Assembly (NCBI RefSeq): GCF_000744835.1
Contig: NZ_JQMS01000001.1
Coordinates: 868,001-932,000 of the forward strand
Origin: Flavobacterium sp. 83
GTDB lineage: Bacteria > Bacteroidota > Bacteroidia > Flavobacteriales > Flavobacteriaceae
Reading direction: 5' to 3'
Length of the DNA: 64,000 nt
Positions 31,255-37,421 of the stretch are shown here, piece after piece. Numbering within the stretch: the first letter of the stretch is position 1; each line of letters opens with the position of its first letter. The notes below the pieces were generated by a model. The model was not told the DNA's origin and did no database searches. It was given only the letters and a program-made list of their open reading frames with translations. The position numbers were made by a program, and so were the translations under genes.

Positions 31255-31425
31255 TTATATGACATCAGATTCGTTACCATTCTTTTTCTGATTCATTTTT
31301 GTAACCAAAGCTTTCAACCGCAACGCTTTTTCTTTTTTTTCTTCTTGAAGTTTAGCCTTTTTCCGATTGAGCAATTTGGTATGTAAAGCCTTATTTTTGG
31401 TGTTTTTTTCGGGTCCTTTTGCCAT
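31255..31425 (-). CDS. Tiny basic protein, unknown
   Basis: A 56-codon frame beginning MAKGPEKNTKNKALHTKLL and continuing as a lysine-rich helix (NRKKAKLQEEKKEKALRLKALVTKMNQKK). No signal or membrane segment. Its composition (about one third Lys/Arg) suggests nucleic-acid or ribosome binding, which is inference only. Support for being real: it starts with ATG and fills an otherwise empty gap; similar small MAKGP- proteins are common in Flavobacterium as far as I recall. Confidence 0.5.
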   Translation of the reverse strand: MAKGPEKNTKNKALHTKLLNRKKAKLQEEKKEKALRLKALVTKMNQKKNGNESDVI

Positions 31426-31669
31426 GGTTTACAGTATTCTTTAATTATGTTTACAAAGATAAAAAAATGATAGTTATGGGCGATTAGAAATCCAACAGAT
31501 AGTGAGAATTTGCAATTCTAGCAGACAAACTATGACAAAAAAACAGGCAACATTTATTTGTAAAAATGATTATATACTAATTCGAATAATTTTGATTTTT
31601 GTTGCGGGAACAGATTGCAACTCTCCTATCGGGTCCTCAATCAATCCAATCGCCTATTGTGTGCAGTTT

Positions 31670-32446
31670 TTATATTTCTTTTAAAGTTGAATAATACTCA
31701 ACTACTTCTGATGAAAAAATTGGATTTTTAACATTTTCTCGAATTTGTTTAATATGTAAATTCAATTTTGTTTTTAACCAATCTAATTTTTCTTTTACCT
31801 CAATATTCTCATTATTGTAGTTTAAGAAAAAATTATTTCTTAAACTTTCAATATAATCATACAAACCAAATTCGATATCATCAAATTCTGATGATGATTT
31901 AGTAATATAGTCGATATAATACATACCATCATTATCTAACGAAAGAATATTCATTATGGATTCATTTTCGTCTTTTTCAGAATTTATATTTTTTCTGTGC
32001 TCTAAGCCATTTTTTATCACTTCTTCATCCACTATAATTCTTGGAAACTTGGCTTTTTTTGATTCGATTTCATATGCTTCAACCAATGCTGGTCCAAATA
32101 TAAGTTCAGAAGTATGTATTAATTTTCCAATACTAACACCTCCACGAATCAAAAAGCCTTTGTTTGCAAGTTCAAAACTTACATATAACAAATCTAATAA
32201 TGTATAAAATAATTGACTTGGCTCATTGTATTTATATGATATTACGATTGAATCTGAAAAATAAGTAATACATTTTGATTTGCAAAATCCTAAGTCATCA
32301 GTAATATTTTTAGATAGCTCTAAAATTGATTTTATTTTTTTAATTTTTTTTATATCATCTTCTCCATCAATATTCACTGTTTGATTAATGTGCTTTTTGA
32401 AACCTAAAATATCAATAAAACAACATATCCTTTTTTCGTAATTCAT
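31670..32446 (-). CDS. Class III nucleotide-cyclase-like protein
   Basis: A 258-residue soluble protein. It shows a degenerate class III adenylate/guanylate cyclase pattern: CCFIDILGF (Asp12 at the position of the first metal Asp), TYFSDSIVIS (Asp65 at the second), RGGVSIGKLIHTSELIFGPALVEAYEIESKKAKFPRIIVD (the strand and helix after the second Asp). Cyclases of this general sort make cCMP or cUMP in Pycsar anti-phage systems, but no Pycsar effector is seen here. It is the third gene of an operon with a PLD-J-domain protein and a gyrase-propeller-like protein (28-bp gap). Activity and product are unproven. Confidence 0.6.
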   Translation of the reverse strand: MNYEKRICCFIDILGFKKHINQTVNIDGEDDIKKIKKIKSILELSKNITDDLGFCKSKCITYFSDSIVISYKYNEPSQLFYTLLDLLYVSFELANKGFLIRGGVSIGKLIHTSELIFGPALVEAYEIESKKAKFPRIIVDEEVIKNGLEHRKNINSEKDENESIMNILSLDNDGMYYIDYITKSSSEFDDIEFGLYDYIESLRNNFFLNYNNENIEVKEKLDWLKTKLNLHIKQIRENVKNPIFSSEVVEYYSTLKEI

Positions 32447-32474
32447 TATTAAAATTGTTTGATTTTGATATATT

Positions 32475-33641
32475 TCATTTTATCGTTTTGTTAATTAAAT
32501 TGGGTAATTTAACTATAGCTTGAACATGTTCATTTTCATAAAAATCATTAATTTTTGTACCGTCAGGGAATCTTATACGGTTACTAATTAAATTGTTGAT
32601 TTTTATATCATCTGCCTTAAACTTATAAAAATATTTTTTGTTTGTAAGTAACAAAAAAATAGTTTCATCTTGTAAAATTTCTACATATGAAATAAATCTA
32701 TTTTTCGAAAATACTGGTTTCCAGTCTTCAATAGAATTATTAAGTACACTAGATTGTGTTTGTTGATTTTGAACAAAAAGCCCCTTTAATAAATTTTCTT
32801 CATTTTGTTTATTATTTAATTCTTCTATTGCTGCTTTAACTTCATGACTCCTCTCTTTATTTACATATGAAAATGTAACTTTTTCTTTTCTCACATAGTC
32901 TTTTTCAGAAACAAAAATTACATCATAATATTTCTCAGAGTTCTCAAGAATTGCCAGCCCGACAACGATATTATTGCCCTCTGCAAGTTTTCCTTGAATA
33001 TAACCAAATGAATTTTTAGGAGAACTTTTTATTTTAAATGCCTCATTATAAAATAATTGACCAAATTTAGAACTAATAACAATTAAACTATTTATATCCA
33101 CAATTTTTACTTTAACTAAAAAATCATATTCATTCAATTTTATAGCAAGCTCACTTGTCAATATTTCATCAATAAATAATTTGATTTTTGTTTTTTTTAC
33201 AAAACCATTTTGAGTGACAAAAAATAATTGCTTGCCTTTTATATTATTTAAATCATCAATTAATACAACATCAACTATTTCATCTTGAATTTCAATAGTA
33301 AATAAATCTTTTAAATCTTTTATTTTCAGTATTTTACCAATAGCTGTTGAAAAATATTTCCCAAATTTAGTAAAGAATATTATTTTAAATGTTCGAGTGA
33401 CTAATTCTATTGATATTAAATTTTCAATAAATACATTTTCGTTCTTTTTGTTGAAAATTAGATTTGCTGTTACGTTTTTGTAGTCTTCAATAGACATTGT
33501 TTGAAAATGAAAATCTCGACTAATTAATAGTAAAAATGATTGATTTGCTATTTCTAGAATTTTCTCTCCAATAGCAATTTGTTTTTCGATTTTTGCTAAT
33601 GAATTATTTACAGAGATTAAAGATTTATTATTTTCTTCCAT
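32475..33641 (-). CDS. GyrA C-terminal-propeller-like protein
   Basis: A 388-residue protein. After an N-terminal helix (LISVNNSLAKIEKQIAIGEKILEIAN, residues 8-33) come repeats of about 50 residues typical of the DNA gyrase A / topoisomerase IV C-terminal beta-pinwheel: KQLFFVTQNGFVKKTKIKLF, LIVISSKFGQLFYNEAFKIK, NIVVGLAILENSEKYYDVIFVSEKDYVRKEKV and a final IRFPDGTKIND. In gyrase this domain wraps DNA. No topoisomerase catalytic domain is present and a clear GyrA-box (QRRGGKG) is missing. It starts three bases after the stop of the PLD-J gene, so they are tightly coupled. It may bind or sense DNA topology; function unproven. Confidence 0.6.
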   Translation of the reverse strand: MEENNKSLISVNNSLAKIEKQIAIGEKILEIANQSFLLLISRDFHFQTMSIEDYKNVTANLIFNKKNENVFIENLISIELVTRTFKIIFFTKFGKYFSTAIGKILKIKDLKDLFTIEIQDEIVDVVLIDDLNNIKGKQLFFVTQNGFVKKTKIKLFIDEILTSELAIKLNEYDFLVKVKIVDINSLIVISSKFGQLFYNEAFKIKSSPKNSFGYIQGKLAEGNNIVVGLAILENSEKYYDVIFVSEKDYVRKEKVTFSYVNKERSHEVKAAIEELNNKQNEENLLKGLFVQNQQTQSSVLNNSIEDWKPVFSKNRFISYVEILQDETIFLLLTNKKYFYKFKADDIKINNLISNRIRFPDGTKINDFYENEHVQAIVKLPNLINKTIK

Positions 33642-33644
33642 ATT

Positions 33645-35054
33645 CTAAATAGTTGTTTCGTTTTTTAGTTCTTCAAGAATTTTTGTAAATTCTTCTTTTG
33701 TTTCCTCAAAATAATTATCCCAATTTTTAATATGGTTTATCTTGTTGAAAACATCAGTATTCTTGATTAATAATAACATTTCTTCTAGCTCATTACGTTT
33801 GCGAATTAAATTTTCTCTAATTATTTTAAGTTTATCTTTCTTATCTATAGTTTCACCTTGCGATTTGAAAATTCCTTTTTCTAAATCTTTTAAAATTTGA
33901 TTTACTTTTTCAAGATTATTATTATCGTAAGCGTTTTTTAAATCGGTAAATATTTTGGTTGCCAATTCTTTTTGGTCGTCCGTTACTTTGTCAGGATGAC
34001 AAAGTTTTGTCGCTTTACGATAATTTTTCTTTAATTCATTTTGTTTTTCTTCATCTAAAACAAAAGGTTTTGGCTCGTTTAATTTATCGTTATATGACTT
34101 TGAAAAATCTTCATAGTCAAATTTTGCTTCTTCGTATTCTTGCTGTTTTTGTTTGTCTTCCCTTGATTCTTTGGCAATTTTCTCAGCTACAACTTTCTTG
34201 TAATGAAGAATTTTGGTAATTAATCCCCCTAATTCTTCATTATACTTTAATTCAAAACTTCTGATGTTCTTTTCTATATCCGTTTTTTCGTCTGACAAAC
34301 TTGAAATTTGATATTCAAGACTTCTAATTTCTAATTGTAAAGCAGGAATTTCAGGATCGTTGTAAATACTTATCTTTTTGAATTCACCGGTGAAATTTTG
34401 AATTAAAACTACAGCCTGACTAAATTCTTTTTTTGAACAATGATTTAATATAATGGTTAATGAGTCCAGTTTTTTATCTGAATGATTTTTAGGAATAAGA
34501 CTTTTGGTTTTATCAACTTGATAATTAATATCTTCTAAATCTTCGAGCTTAATTACATTTACTAATGTTTCCAATCGTATAACAATCTTAATCCAATCTA
34601 TTTCCGCATTTGGATTGTAATATTTGTCTTTTATCTTGTCAAATTCCTGATTGAAATCTAAAATGAGGTTAAAATCCTCTTCAATCACAGTGATACTTTC
34701 GTGATTTGATTTTGCTTTTTGTGTCCAGTTATAAGAACCAAAAATTAAAATAGTATTGTCAATTACACAAAATTTGTTGTGCATTAAAGGCGCATAGGCA
34801 GTGTCTTTGCCAATCCAAAATATTTGTCCTCCATTTGTAATTAAATCTCGTGATTTTATATTGCTATCGTGATTTATTTCATGATTTGCCATAAGTAATT
34901 CAACCTGAATTCCTTCTTTGGCTTTCTCGCAAAGAATATCGAATAACTTCGCATCTGTAAACCAAGCCACTGCAATTCTAATACTTGTATGGGATTCTTG
35001 TAAACGAATTTCAATTTGTTTATGGATTTTTTCGAAGTAGGCTTGTGATTTCAT
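33645..35054 (-). CDS. Phospholipase-D-like nuclease with coiled coil and J-domain
   Basis: A 469-residue protein. Residues 1-135 are a PLD domain with one HKD motif: His92-x-Lys94-x4-Asp99 in HNKFCVID, followed by IFGSYNWTQ, as in Nuc-type nucleases and PLD6. One HKD implies an active dimer. Residues 240-325 form a charged coiled coil. Residues 330-385 look like a J-domain: LKKNYRKATKLCHPDKVTDDQKELATKIFTDLKNAYDN with the essential His353-Pro-Asp. J-domains recruit Hsp70 (DnaK). The combination suggests a nuclease recruited to or regulated by DnaK. It is the first gene of a three-gene operon and lies far from other chaperone genes in the window. Confidence 0.75.
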   Translation of the reverse strand: MKSQAYFEKIHKQIEIRLQESHTSIRIAVAWFTDAKLFDILCEKAKEGIQVELLMANHEINHDSNIKSRDLITNGGQIFWIGKDTAYAPLMHNKFCVIDNTILIFGSYNWTQKAKSNHESITVIEEDFNLILDFNQEFDKIKDKYYNPNAEIDWIKIVIRLETLVNVIKLEDLEDINYQVDKTKSLIPKNHSDKKLDSLTIILNHCSKKEFSQAVVLIQNFTGEFKKISIYNDPEIPALQLEIRSLEYQISSLSDEKTDIEKNIRSFELKYNEELGGLITKILHYKKVVAEKIAKESREDKQKQQEYEEAKFDYEDFSKSYNDKLNEPKPFVLDEEKQNELKKNYRKATKLCHPDKVTDDQKELATKIFTDLKNAYDNNNLEKVNQILKDLEKGIFKSQGETIDKKDKLKIIRENLIRKRNELEEMLLLIKNTDVFNKINHIKNWDNYFEETKEEFTKILEELKNETTI

Positions 35055-35180
35055 TAAATCTCTTTATTTCTTTAAAAGCTTGTATTTAGCTTTATATTCT
35101 TTCTTCAAATTTACAGAAAAGAAAATTCATTACTTTACGGCTTTCCGTAATTAAACAAAAACTTCATGTGATGCAGGATC

Positions 35181-35259
35181 CCCTAGCCCTGATAAAAGCG
35201 GTATCCTATTGTGCCGGGGTTCGGCACAATAGATATAGCGTAGAGCAGGAAATAGCTCC
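35181..35259 (+). ncRNA. Dispersed structured element, copy B (possible flavo-1-like RNA)
   Basis: CCCTAGCCCTGAT...GTATCCT, then a strong 11-bp G/C-containing hairpin (CTATTGTGCCG / CGGCACAATAG), then GATATAGCGTAGAGCAGG and AAATAGCTCC. Flanking blocks match copies A, C and D, but the central stem sequence is entirely different, the clearest case for structure conservation. Confidence 0.55.
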
Positions 35260-35297
35260 TGAAAACAATCCTAATATTTAAAAATACATGCAAGTAC

Positions 35298-35317
35298 GGA
35301 CAAGTCGCGACTTGTCC
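35298..35317. repeat. 20-bp perfect palindrome
   Basis: GGACAAGTCGCGACTTGTCC is its own reverse complement. It lies 17 bases before the metG -7 element, so it could be an operator or a mobile palindrome that happened to land there. Confidence 0.75.
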
Positions 35318-35333
35318 CTACCATAAAAAATCT

Positions 35334-35341
35334 TATTTTTG
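35334..35341 (+). promoter_or_regulatory. -7 promoter element for metG
   Basis: TATTTTTG (TAnnTTTG), 19 bases before the ATG; the leader must be very short. Confidence 0.6.
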
Positions 35342-35360
35342 CACTCAATAAAATTGAATC

Positions 35361-37421
35361 ATGATACAGAATCCAAAAAGATATACCATTACAGCGGCAT
35401 TGCCTTATACGAACGGACCGATTCACATTGGCCATTTGGCGGGTGTTTACGTGCCTTCGGATATATATTCCAGATATTTAAGATTGCAGGGAAGAGACGT
35501 TTTGTTTGTTTGCGGAAGTGACGAGCACGGCGTGGCAATTTCGATGAAAGCCAAAAAAGAAGGCATTACGCCACAAGAAGTAATCGATAAATATGATGGA
35601 ATAATCCGTAAATCGTTCTCTGATTTTGGAATTTCGTTTGATAATTATTCCAGAACTTCGGCTAAAATTCATCATGATACGGCTTCGGAATTTTTTAGAA
35701 AACTATATGACAAAGGTGATTTTATCGAAGAAGTGACCGAACAATTGTATGATGCAAAAGCAGACCAATTCTTGGCAGACCGTTTTGTGGTGGGAACTTG
35801 TCCAAAATGTGGCAACGAAGAAGCTTACGGTGACCAATGCGAAAAATGTGGTTCGACGCTAAACGCTACGGATTTAATTAATCCAAAATCGACAATAACT
35901 GGAGAAACTCCAATTTTGAAATCTACGAAACACTGGTTTTTGCCTTTGGACCGTTATGAAGATTTCTTGAAAGAATGGATTCTCGTTGGACATAAAAATG
36001 ACTGGAAACCCAATGTTTACGGACAAGTAAAATCATGGATTGACGGCGGACTCGAGCCTCGTGCGGTAACTCGTGACCTAGATTGGGGAATTGATGTTCC
36101 CGTTGAAGGTGCTGAAGGAAAAAAATTATATGTGTGGTTTGATGCGCCAATTGGCTACATTTCATCTACGAAAGAATGGGCTTTGCGCGAAGGAAAAGAT
36201 TGGGAACCGTACTGGAAAGATCAGGATACGAAACTGGTTCACTTCATTGGGAAGGACAATATTGTTTTCCATTGTATCATTTTTCCGGCGATGTTAAAAG
36301 CCGAAGGAAGTTATATTTTGCCGGACAATGTTCCTGCAAACGAGTTCTTGAACTTAGAAGGAAACAAATTGTCTACGTCTAAAAACTGGGCAGTTTGGTT
36401 GCACGAATATTTAGAAGAATTCCCGAATCAGCAAGATGTTTTGCGTTATGCGTTGACATCAAATGCGCCGGAAACTAAGGATAATGATTTTACCTGGAAA
36501 GATTTTCAAGCAAGAAATAATAATGAATTGGTAGCGATTTACGGGAATTTCATTAATCGTGTGGTGGTTTTAACCAACAAATATTACAACGGAATTGTTC
36601 CTCAACCAAATGAACTTTCAGAAGTAGACGAAGCGACTTTAACCGAATTGAAAGCGTACCCAGCTGTGATTTCGAGTTCTGTGGAACGTTACAGATTCCG
36701 TGAAGCTTTAAGCGAACTAATGAATGTAGCGCGTTTAGGAAATAAATATTTGGCAGATGAAGAGCCTTGGAAAGTCATCAAAGACAATCCGGAGCGCGTG
36801 CAAACGCAAATGTATGTGGCGTTGCAAATAGCTGCTGCGTTGAGTTCACTTTGCGAACCGTTCTTACCCTTTACAGCAAAAAAATTATCAAGAATTTTAA
36901 AAATAGAAAGCCCGTTGAACTGGAGTACCATTTCAGAAACATCTGATTTGATTCAGGCTGGACACCAAATTGGGGAAGCTGAATTGTTGTTTGCCAAAAT
37001 TGAAGACGAGGAAATCCAAAAACAAATCGACAAACTGGAAGCAACAAAAACGGCTAATACTGCCGAAAACAAAAAAGCAGAACCACAGAAAGAAGCGATT
37101 CAATTTGAGGATTTTGCCAAAATGGATATCCGTACAGGAACAATATTGGAAGCCGAAAAAATGCCGAAAGCCAACAAGCTTTTGATTTTGAAAGTTGACA
37201 CCGGAATTGACGTTCGTACGATAGTTTCGGGAATTGCCGAAAGTTTCAAACCAGAAGATATCGTAGGAAAAAAAGTTACTGTTTTAGTGAATTTGGCTCC
37301 AAGAAACCTTCGTGGTGTAGAAAGTCAAGGAATGATTTTGATGACTACAAATGCCGAAGGGAAACTGGTATTTGTAAATCCGGATACGGATGGCGTTGCC
37401 AATGGAGAGACTATAAATTAA
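35361..37421 (+). CDS. metG: Methionine--tRNA ligase
   Basis: A 686-residue class I synthetase. HIGH is present as PIHIGHLAG, the KMSKS loop as [12 protein letters not shown], and the zinc knuckle as [18 protein letters not shown] (four Cys). After a Lys/Glu-rich linker (about 555-580) comes a C-terminal EMAP/Trbp111-type tRNA-binding domain: [31 protein letters not shown]. This is the standard dimeric bacterial form. Confidence 0.97.

Follow-up and report, generated by a model that had tools for sequence, protein, structure and literature searches.

The window analysed here is 64 kb of the single-contig, 3.79-Mb genome of Flavobacterium sp. 83. It contains a low-GC insert with three genes on one strand: gene 1, encoding a phospholipase D (PLD)-type protein with a J-domain (PLD-J); gene 2, encoding a short adaptor followed by a propeller like that of the GyrA C-terminal domain; and gene 3, encoding a class III cyclase-like protein (Table 1). 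An earlier reading made from the letters of this DNA, here called the sequence-only reading, had described three minus-strand genes with gaps of 3 and 28 bases, and coordinates, strand and gaps are as it claimed. We found that genes 1 and 2 represent a recurring pair, in which the PLD-J protein and the adaptor are constant and the body of the partner behind the adaptor is exchanged for unrelated repeat domains.

Table 1. Features of the insert in the window, with positions counted from the first base of the window.
Feature	Positions	Strand	Remarks
Low-GC insert (islet) holding genes 1-3	31463..35290	.	between metG and small gene 31258-31425
Promoter-like box TAAATTTG	35106..35113	-	by eye; 52 bases upstream of gene 1; suggestion only
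Gene 1, PLD-J, 469 aa	33645..35054	-	single-HKD PLD domain, long middle region, J-domain, tail
PLDc_2 domain, residues 17-141	34632..35006	-	Pfam E=3.7e-21, above cut-off
HKD motif H92xK94x4D99 ... G106-S-Y-N109	34728..34781	-	12/12 compared sequences covering the region
J-domain core, residues 335-377	33924..34052	-	Pfam DnaJ E=2.1e-6, 28.2 bits against cut-off 27.8
HPD motif, residues 353-355 (C-H353-P-D355)	33990..33998	-	HPD in 12/13 covering sequences
Gene 2, adaptor + GyrA C-terminal-domain-like propeller, 388 aa	32475..33641	-	3-base gap after gene 1
N-terminal adaptor, residues 1-33, MEENNKSLISVNNSLAKIEKQIAIGEKILEIAN	33543..33641	-	common to partners otherwise unrelated
GyrA C-terminal-domain-like region, residues 31-294	32760..33551	-	NF004043 E=6.5e-16
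Gene 3, class III cyclase-like	31670..32446	-	28-base gap after gene 2; same insert, outside the recurring unit
Asp12 of gene 3, predicted metal ligand	32411..32413	-	invariant in 6/6 and 11/11 members
Asp65 of gene 3, predicted metal ligand	32252..32254	-	invariant in 6/6 and 11/11 members

By its sequence, gene 1 is a member of the PLD nuclease family that carries a J-domain. The residues that the sequence-only reading had named, His92, Lys94 and Asp99 of an HKD motif and His353-Pro-Asp of the J-domain, are correct, and both domains passed their Pfam cut-offs. The first motif reads H92-N-K94-(4)-D99; two further sequences in the motif comparison do not cover this region. The DnaJ model scored below its cut-off in two relatives, L116 (26.1 bits) and L115 (24.4 bits). 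The middle region of the protein is helical or coiled by appearance. Single-HKD PLD nucleases, of which the BfiI type is one, act as dimers, and J-domains stimulate DnaK. Through its HKD motif gene 1 resembles the nucleases NucT and Nuc (NucT models, E=6e-12; PDB 6ehi, 2.6e-13; PDB 1byr, 1.4e-12), and it matched the PADLOC models MkoC (5.3e-8) and DrmC (1.5e-6). It differs from NucT and DrmC by its J-domain and long middle region, and its scores on the NCBIfam NucT and DrmC models are far below the curated cut-offs. Likeness to DISARM is limited to the weak DrmC similarity, and the three genes of the insert include no DrmA, DrmB or methylase. When gene 1 was compared with that of the window's closest relative, G031, the non-synonymous rate (dN) was far below the synonymous rate (dS), with values of 0.066 and 0.87 by NG86 and of 0.057 and 1.14 by YN00 (dN/dS about 0.05-0.08), indicating that gene 1 is under purifying selection.

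Gene 2 carries GyrA C-terminal-type repeats and no topoisomerase, as the sequence-only reading had said. Full GyrA models aligned to it by their C-terminal domain (NF004043, Table 1; TIGR01063, E=2.3e-13), although their scores fall far short of the cut-offs that apply to a whole GyrA. Topoisomerase IV and GyrA chains in PDB matched it at best with 1.2e-8. The Pfam GyrA-C model alone was weak (E=0.0012, 18.7 bits, cut-off 27). Gene 2 is thus like the C-terminal domains of GyrA and ParC in its propeller repeats, and unlike them in having no topoisomerase domain and a short adaptor in front. A recent duplication of the host GyrA was ruled out as its origin, given 23% identity between residues 31-255 and the genome's own GyrA-like protein, and no plasmid record matched gene 2 at E<=1e-5. 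The GyrA-box is needed for DNA wrapping; by eye, no R-G-G box was present at the aligned place in gene 2; the motif pattern used also missed the host's own GyrA. The protein is basic (isoelectric point (pI) 8.9 and 9.4 after residue 36), and its propeller may bind DNA.

Next, we examined what accompanies PLD-J elsewhere. Genomes were sampled evenly within a single phylum and viral contigs were added, so that partners outside this phylum may have escaped notice. PLD-J was found at 15 loci (G000, G031, G168, G140, G234, G238, G231, G093, G206, G467, G309, G258, G784, L115 and L116); G238 is counted despite having no PLD half, and proteins with only the coil and J parts (G872 and the plasmid matches H15/H41 and H40) are left out. 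At nine of them (the window, G031, G168, G234, G140, G238, G467, G784 and L115) a partner gene lies directly downstream on the same strand, starting -11 to +10 bases from the end of gene 1, and the first ~30 residues of these partners are similar. Behind this adaptor the bodies are unrelated: a GyrA propeller at two loci, a 25-residue repeat that we call WSE at four (one of them broken), WG repeats at two and leucine-rich repeats (LRR) at one. The second GyrA-type partner, in G467, matched at E=8.6e-34 (Pfam, 4.7e-12), the WG repeats of G238 and L115 at Pfam E=2.5e-57 and 2.1e-96, and the LRR partner of G168 at E=1.3e-45. The WSE repeat, LPWSEDFxxKYxDKWDWxxLSxN, was read in G031 and G234, in more diverged and weakly periodic form in G784 (self-identity at lag 25 of 31%, 20% and 12%, respectively), and by eye in the broken copy of G140.

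Several side observations concern these partners. No convincing Pfam or NCBIfam model was found for the WSE repeat (L002:2677-4023, L074:708-2048, L032:5392-6888, L195, L196), which also occurs on Salinibacter and Acinetobacter plasmids. G238 has a second adaptor-WG gene on a separate contig (L108:699-1988). The G467 partner matches 43 plasmid records; of 20 that were listed, 13 have a gyrA annotation and the other 7 have none at the place. At L116 an LRR gene lies upstream of PLD-J, and the adaptor was not recognized in it.

The border between the constant and the exchanged part falls inside the partner gene. The window and G031, whose partner has WSE repeats, are 85.8% identical as DNA along 1,496 bp that begin with the gene 1 ATG and run as far as codon 27 of gene 2 (ending at 33561), and no further DNA similarity was found when window positions 31400-35200 were compared with L037 1001-8000 of G031. 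We then performed Mantel tests (40,000 permutations) on the nine adaptor-bearing loci, and in another version on eight, using the PLD-J columns present in the C-terminal fragment of G784. PLD-J identity correlated with adaptor identity (r=0.832, p=0.0001, n=9), also when G031 was left out (r=0.73, p=0.0016). It did not correlate with repeat class (r=0.07, p=0.28, n=9; without G031, r=0.22, p=0.12). The telling point is this contrast within one gene: the adaptor tracks PLD-J and the repeat class does not. Since the G238 partner keeps its adaptor beside a gene with no PLD half, docking, if any, would be on the coil/J half.

The adaptor was also searched for as a profile. With a profile of six adaptors, 4 of 249 same-genus genomes had a match at E<1e-10, in each case directly after PLD-J, and 37 of 249 had any match at E<=0.1. 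With a nine-sequence profile, 228 phylum genomes yielded three strong matches, each of them following PLD-J, and five weak ones. The window's own genome is included in both strong counts. Among the weak matches of the six-adaptor profile, L088 and L093 looked unrelated on inspection, L108 is the second adaptor-WG gene of G238, and that of G140 was accepted as genuine, given its position directly after PLD-J. When the adaptor was searched for with a loose DNA pattern, 218 of the 249 genomes matched, and the pattern was discarded as uninformative.

Tight spacing, recurrent pairing and exchange of one partner's body are also what would be expected of a toxin-antitoxin or intercellular-competition pair, in which PLD-J would be the toxin, acting as a nuclease, the adaptor protein would be the immunity factor that inhibits it, and selection for specificity would vary the repeats. 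An Enterobacter plasmid coil/J protein beside an Hcp gene points the same way. We consider such a pair rather unlikely. An antitoxin usually retains its binding body, whereas here the body is exchanged and a short tag is retained, and usual antitoxins are smaller than 300-500 aa. In addition, no delivery-domain model matched gene 1, on which signal peptides were not searched for.

The distribution of PLD-J is patchy. Of 249 same-genus genomes, 23 carry a match to gene 1 at E<=1e-10, and eight of these hits extend into the J region. At E<=1e-25 a PLD-J profile matched 14 of 397 family genomes and 12 of 395 phylum genomes, most by the PLD half alone. The genes of L115 and L116 are full length and are two of nine viral-contig matches; those of G140 and G206 have internal stops, and that of G784 is split across two contigs. 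A PLD match at E<=1e-8 was found in 1 of 50,697 phage records. Plasmid records covering 80% of the protein numbered 0 of 18 for gene 1 and 0 of 19 for the PLD-J of L116, the best of the latter covering 66%, the coil/J part. Two plasmids encode related proteins lacking the PLD part: the Enterobacter one already mentioned (L029:7380-8549, near the Hcp gene), and one from Salmonella that matches the J and coiled parts (L156:6022-7197).

In the window, the genes lie in an insertion relative to a close relative. Nucleotide alignment with G003 breaks at 31462 and 35291, and ~3.8 kb in the window stands against ~230 bp at the same place in G003, as measured by DNA alignment. G003 is an empty site: the small gene that lies beyond gene 3 in the window directly follows metG there, and its MetG is identical to that of the window over the 328 residues on the G003 contig.

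A GyrA-type propeller on a basic partner (pI 8.9, 9.4) could bind DNA and the J-domain implies DnaK, so a chaperone-assisted repair or quality-control nuclease has to be weighed, in which gene 2 would target PLD-J and DnaK to host substrates such as DNA supercoils or aggregates and phages would play no part. Presence in so few genomes of the genus, the empty site in a near relative and swapped partners that include LRR and WG repeats, unlike housekeeping, make this quite unlikely in our judgement. The partners also bear on the proposal of the sequence-only reading that gene 2 is a sensor or wrapper of DNA, which is only partly supported. The counterparts of the propeller are WG, LRR and 25-residue repeats, so wrapping of DNA cannot be what these partners do in general; the exchange suggests recognition in general instead.

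A sister group of PLD-J loci has other neighbours. In G231, G309 and G258 there is no adaptor, and VWA, PP2C-like and kinase-like genes follow PLD-J. In G231 the VWA (1.2e-7) and kinase (3.7e-5) matches pass the Pfam cut-off and the PP2C match (8e-4) is below it; in G309 and G258 the three were assigned by sequence resemblance only. These gene runs resemble TerY-P triads (VWA, PP2C and kinase), which are absent from the insert, where the partner is an adaptor-repeat protein. TerY-P triads are described as accompanying defence clusters in PMC11090510. The run of G231 lies beside McrC; the one in G258 has as neighbours a restriction enzyme of type IIG (3,006 bits) and a helicase that resembles DrmD. 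The sister runs also hold DUF4407-type genes (L034:7038-14525, L059:5212-11592, L060:4399-10691).

The patchy insert, the swap pattern and these sister-group neighbours suggest defence and make an anti-phage reading plausible. In our main reading, to which we give about even odds, genes 1 and 2 exemplify a two-part system that swaps its sensor and is most likely directed against phages. Gene 1 would be the constant effector, a PLD nuclease that is probably dimeric given its single HKD motif, and its J-domain, together with the cell's DnaK, would hold the nuclease inactive or release it. Gene 2 would be the receptor: its first ~30 residues would dock on the non-catalytic half of gene 1, and the GyrA-type propeller behind them would bind an infection-associated ligand, as would the WG, LRR and WSE repeats of the other partners. 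Ligand binding would then free or activate the nuclease, so that phage or cell nucleic acid is cut.

A number of points weigh against this proposal. That the adaptor docks, that DnaK is used, that a ligand is sensed, that the nuclease is active and that the pair acts in defence are inferences from sequence. At six of the 15 loci no adaptor was seen, and two of these (G093 and G206) are at contig ends and unable to show a partner. Nine loci are few, the adaptor is only ~30 residues long and its alignment is accordingly short, and a Mantel correlation alone is no proof of contact, because adjacent genes are co-inherited. The strong adaptor matches are circular, as the profiles were built from those proteins, and only the lack of strong matches elsewhere is informative; the first profile also missed the divergent G238 partner on contig C60, which was seen by eye in the frame translation. 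The hydrophobic moment of the adaptor is unremarkable in most copies (shuffle fraction <0.06 in 2 of 9) and does not support a clearly amphipathic helix. Much of the middle region of gene 1 has no Pfam match. The gene of G238 (L033:8981-9883) has only the coil/J half, though its contig continues upstream, G140 is broken in both PLD-J and partner, and the PLD-J of G031 (L037:1264-2670) reads HPN in place of HPD, so that its stimulation of DnaK should be weaker. Finally, among six flank proteins of adaptor loci, Pfam recognized no defence family and one DUF3293.

There is a precedent for a chaperone in phage defence. Passages of PMC12169576 report that defence by bNACHT25 needs the host DnaJ, that DnaJ H33Q and D35N fail to restore defence, and that DNA degradation goes along with a defence that depends on the J-protein/DnaK cycle. 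By analogy, bNACHT25 as described in those passages is a precedent for chaperone-coupled phage sensing. The system here is unlike it in that the J-domain is part of the predicted nuclease and no NACHT module is present.

A broader idea, which we offer only tentatively, is an immune architecture in which a nuclease-co-chaperone is constant, receptors are interchangeable through the ~30-residue tag, and sensing is gated by the DnaK cycle of the effector. If this were true, any repeat domain appended to the docking tag would become a new trigger. In many known bacterial immune systems it is the effector that varies and the sensor that is kept, or one protein holds both. Here the nuclease is constant, and the presumed sensor is replaced from a sharply defined point within the partner gene onward. 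With this arrangement, direct tests can be made of how an effector is programmed by its recognition domain and of whether a J-domain restrains a nuclease via DnaK, and new receptors could be tried in laboratory strains if the adaptor docks as proposed. A GyrA propeller serving as a receptor without a topoisomerase would be unusual. Among the open-licence PMC articles listed in literature searches, none describes PLD-J with swapped partners in its title or the start of its abstract, and the passages of PMC12839542 contain no DnaJ, gyrase or leucine-rich and have phospholipase D only among the references.

Gene 3 is a different case. The sequence-only reading had assigned it class III cyclase motifs, of which Asp12 and Asp65 held up, being invariant in a six-member set found by tblastn or patterns and in an 11-member set in which D12 is partly built in, as it lies in one of two search patterns. 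No Pfam or NCBIfam family and, by single sequence, no PDB entry matched gene 3, and a cyclase model matched none of the six family members, gene 3 included. Adenylate cyclases made up six of the seven PDB hits of the six-member profile, at E 0.12-0.5. When gene 3 was aligned by hhalign with 11 Guanylate_cyc domains from the phylum, the two were collinear over 137 columns (E=3.3e-4, probability 38%), with D12 and D65 placed on the cyclase metal Asps; a thinner profile gave E=0.011 and probability 4%, and an unrelated control E=0.26. A cyclase fold is likely on profile evidence. In this weak alignment, read by eye, the catalytic Asn and Arg positions of class III cyclases hold V122 and E126, which makes ordinary cyclase activity doubtful, and with it the suggestion that gene 3 makes a signal. 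Gene 3 thus resembles Pycsar and class III cyclases in its two metal Asps and a weak collinear profile match, and is unlike them in that the Asn/Arg transition-state pair is not kept and no receptor gene was recognized beside it.

The sequence-only reading had asked whether the three genes co-occur. They lie on one strand in the same low-GC insert, with 28 bases between genes 2 and 3, which would suit the joint action that the sequence-only reading proposed; the nuclease would then be controlled by a cyclic nucleotide that gene 3 makes or senses. However, gene 3 was not found at the 14 other PLD-J loci in the stretches read (8.6-20 kb each, two for G784). Over these stretches a conserved three-gene system was ruled out, the recurring unit being PLD-J and its adaptor partner. 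Relatives of gene 3 occurred in 7 of 189 same-genus genomes, and none of the six besides the window's belongs to the 23 (of 249) genomes in which a PLD match was found. The settings of gene 3 relatives are different ones, whether on chromosomes, plasmids or viral contigs: 49 plasmid records matched at E<=1e-5, 12 loci were found on viral contigs, and no phage record matched at E<=1e-5. The relative in G072 is 62% identical, and its DNA similarity to the window sets in at 32463, which is 17 bases ahead of the start codon of gene 3. Together with the replaced Asn and Arg positions, these results make joint action of the three genes very unlikely. On sequence evidence we conclude that gene 3 is a separate module of a mobile family that shares the same insert, either a passenger or an independent second function of it.

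The gene 3 family belongs to PHROGs family phrog_23933 (E=5.5e-37), which has no assigned function, and its settings on viral contigs and plasmids are varied (L114, L160, L162-L168; L189:5790-7514). By open-frame reading, relatives lie beside an integrase (L114) and among tail genes (L165, L166), and one follows repABC on an Agrobacterium plasmid. By eye, two are directly behind a ParA-like ATPase (L168, G170). The closest relative, in G072 (L188:5443-7516), is preceded by a kinase-like glycine-loop protein, with mobile-looking genes around it by eye.

The GC content of the insert is 21-30% in most 500-base windows, compared with 36-42% in metG and 31-33% just to the left, so that GC changes sharply at the metG end and only mildly at the opposite end. 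Repeat searches within the insert returned only imperfect, mostly short AT-rich matches, no terminator-like site was found, and the insert as DNA had no match among plasmid records. Sigma-70-like sites numbered 30 against 25.9 expected. The box TAAATTTG upstream of gene 1 resembles TAnnTTTG, the -7 box of Bacteroidota promoters; by eye, it is not accompanied by a matching TTG at -33.

The neighbourhood on the metG side differs among relatives. The small gene was seen in 4 of 12 relatives read (G003, G005, G007 and G008), directly beside metG in G003 and G008. In G005, G006 and G007 other open frames separate metG from the small-gene neighbourhood, and G008 has ~7.5 kb with eight open frames of at least 80 aa after the small gene. 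Because relatives carry different genes there, the metG-side interval is a variable site. Across the whole interval from metG to the serS neighbourhood (window positions 31425-35361, loci L144-L151), gene content differs among relatives of the genus.

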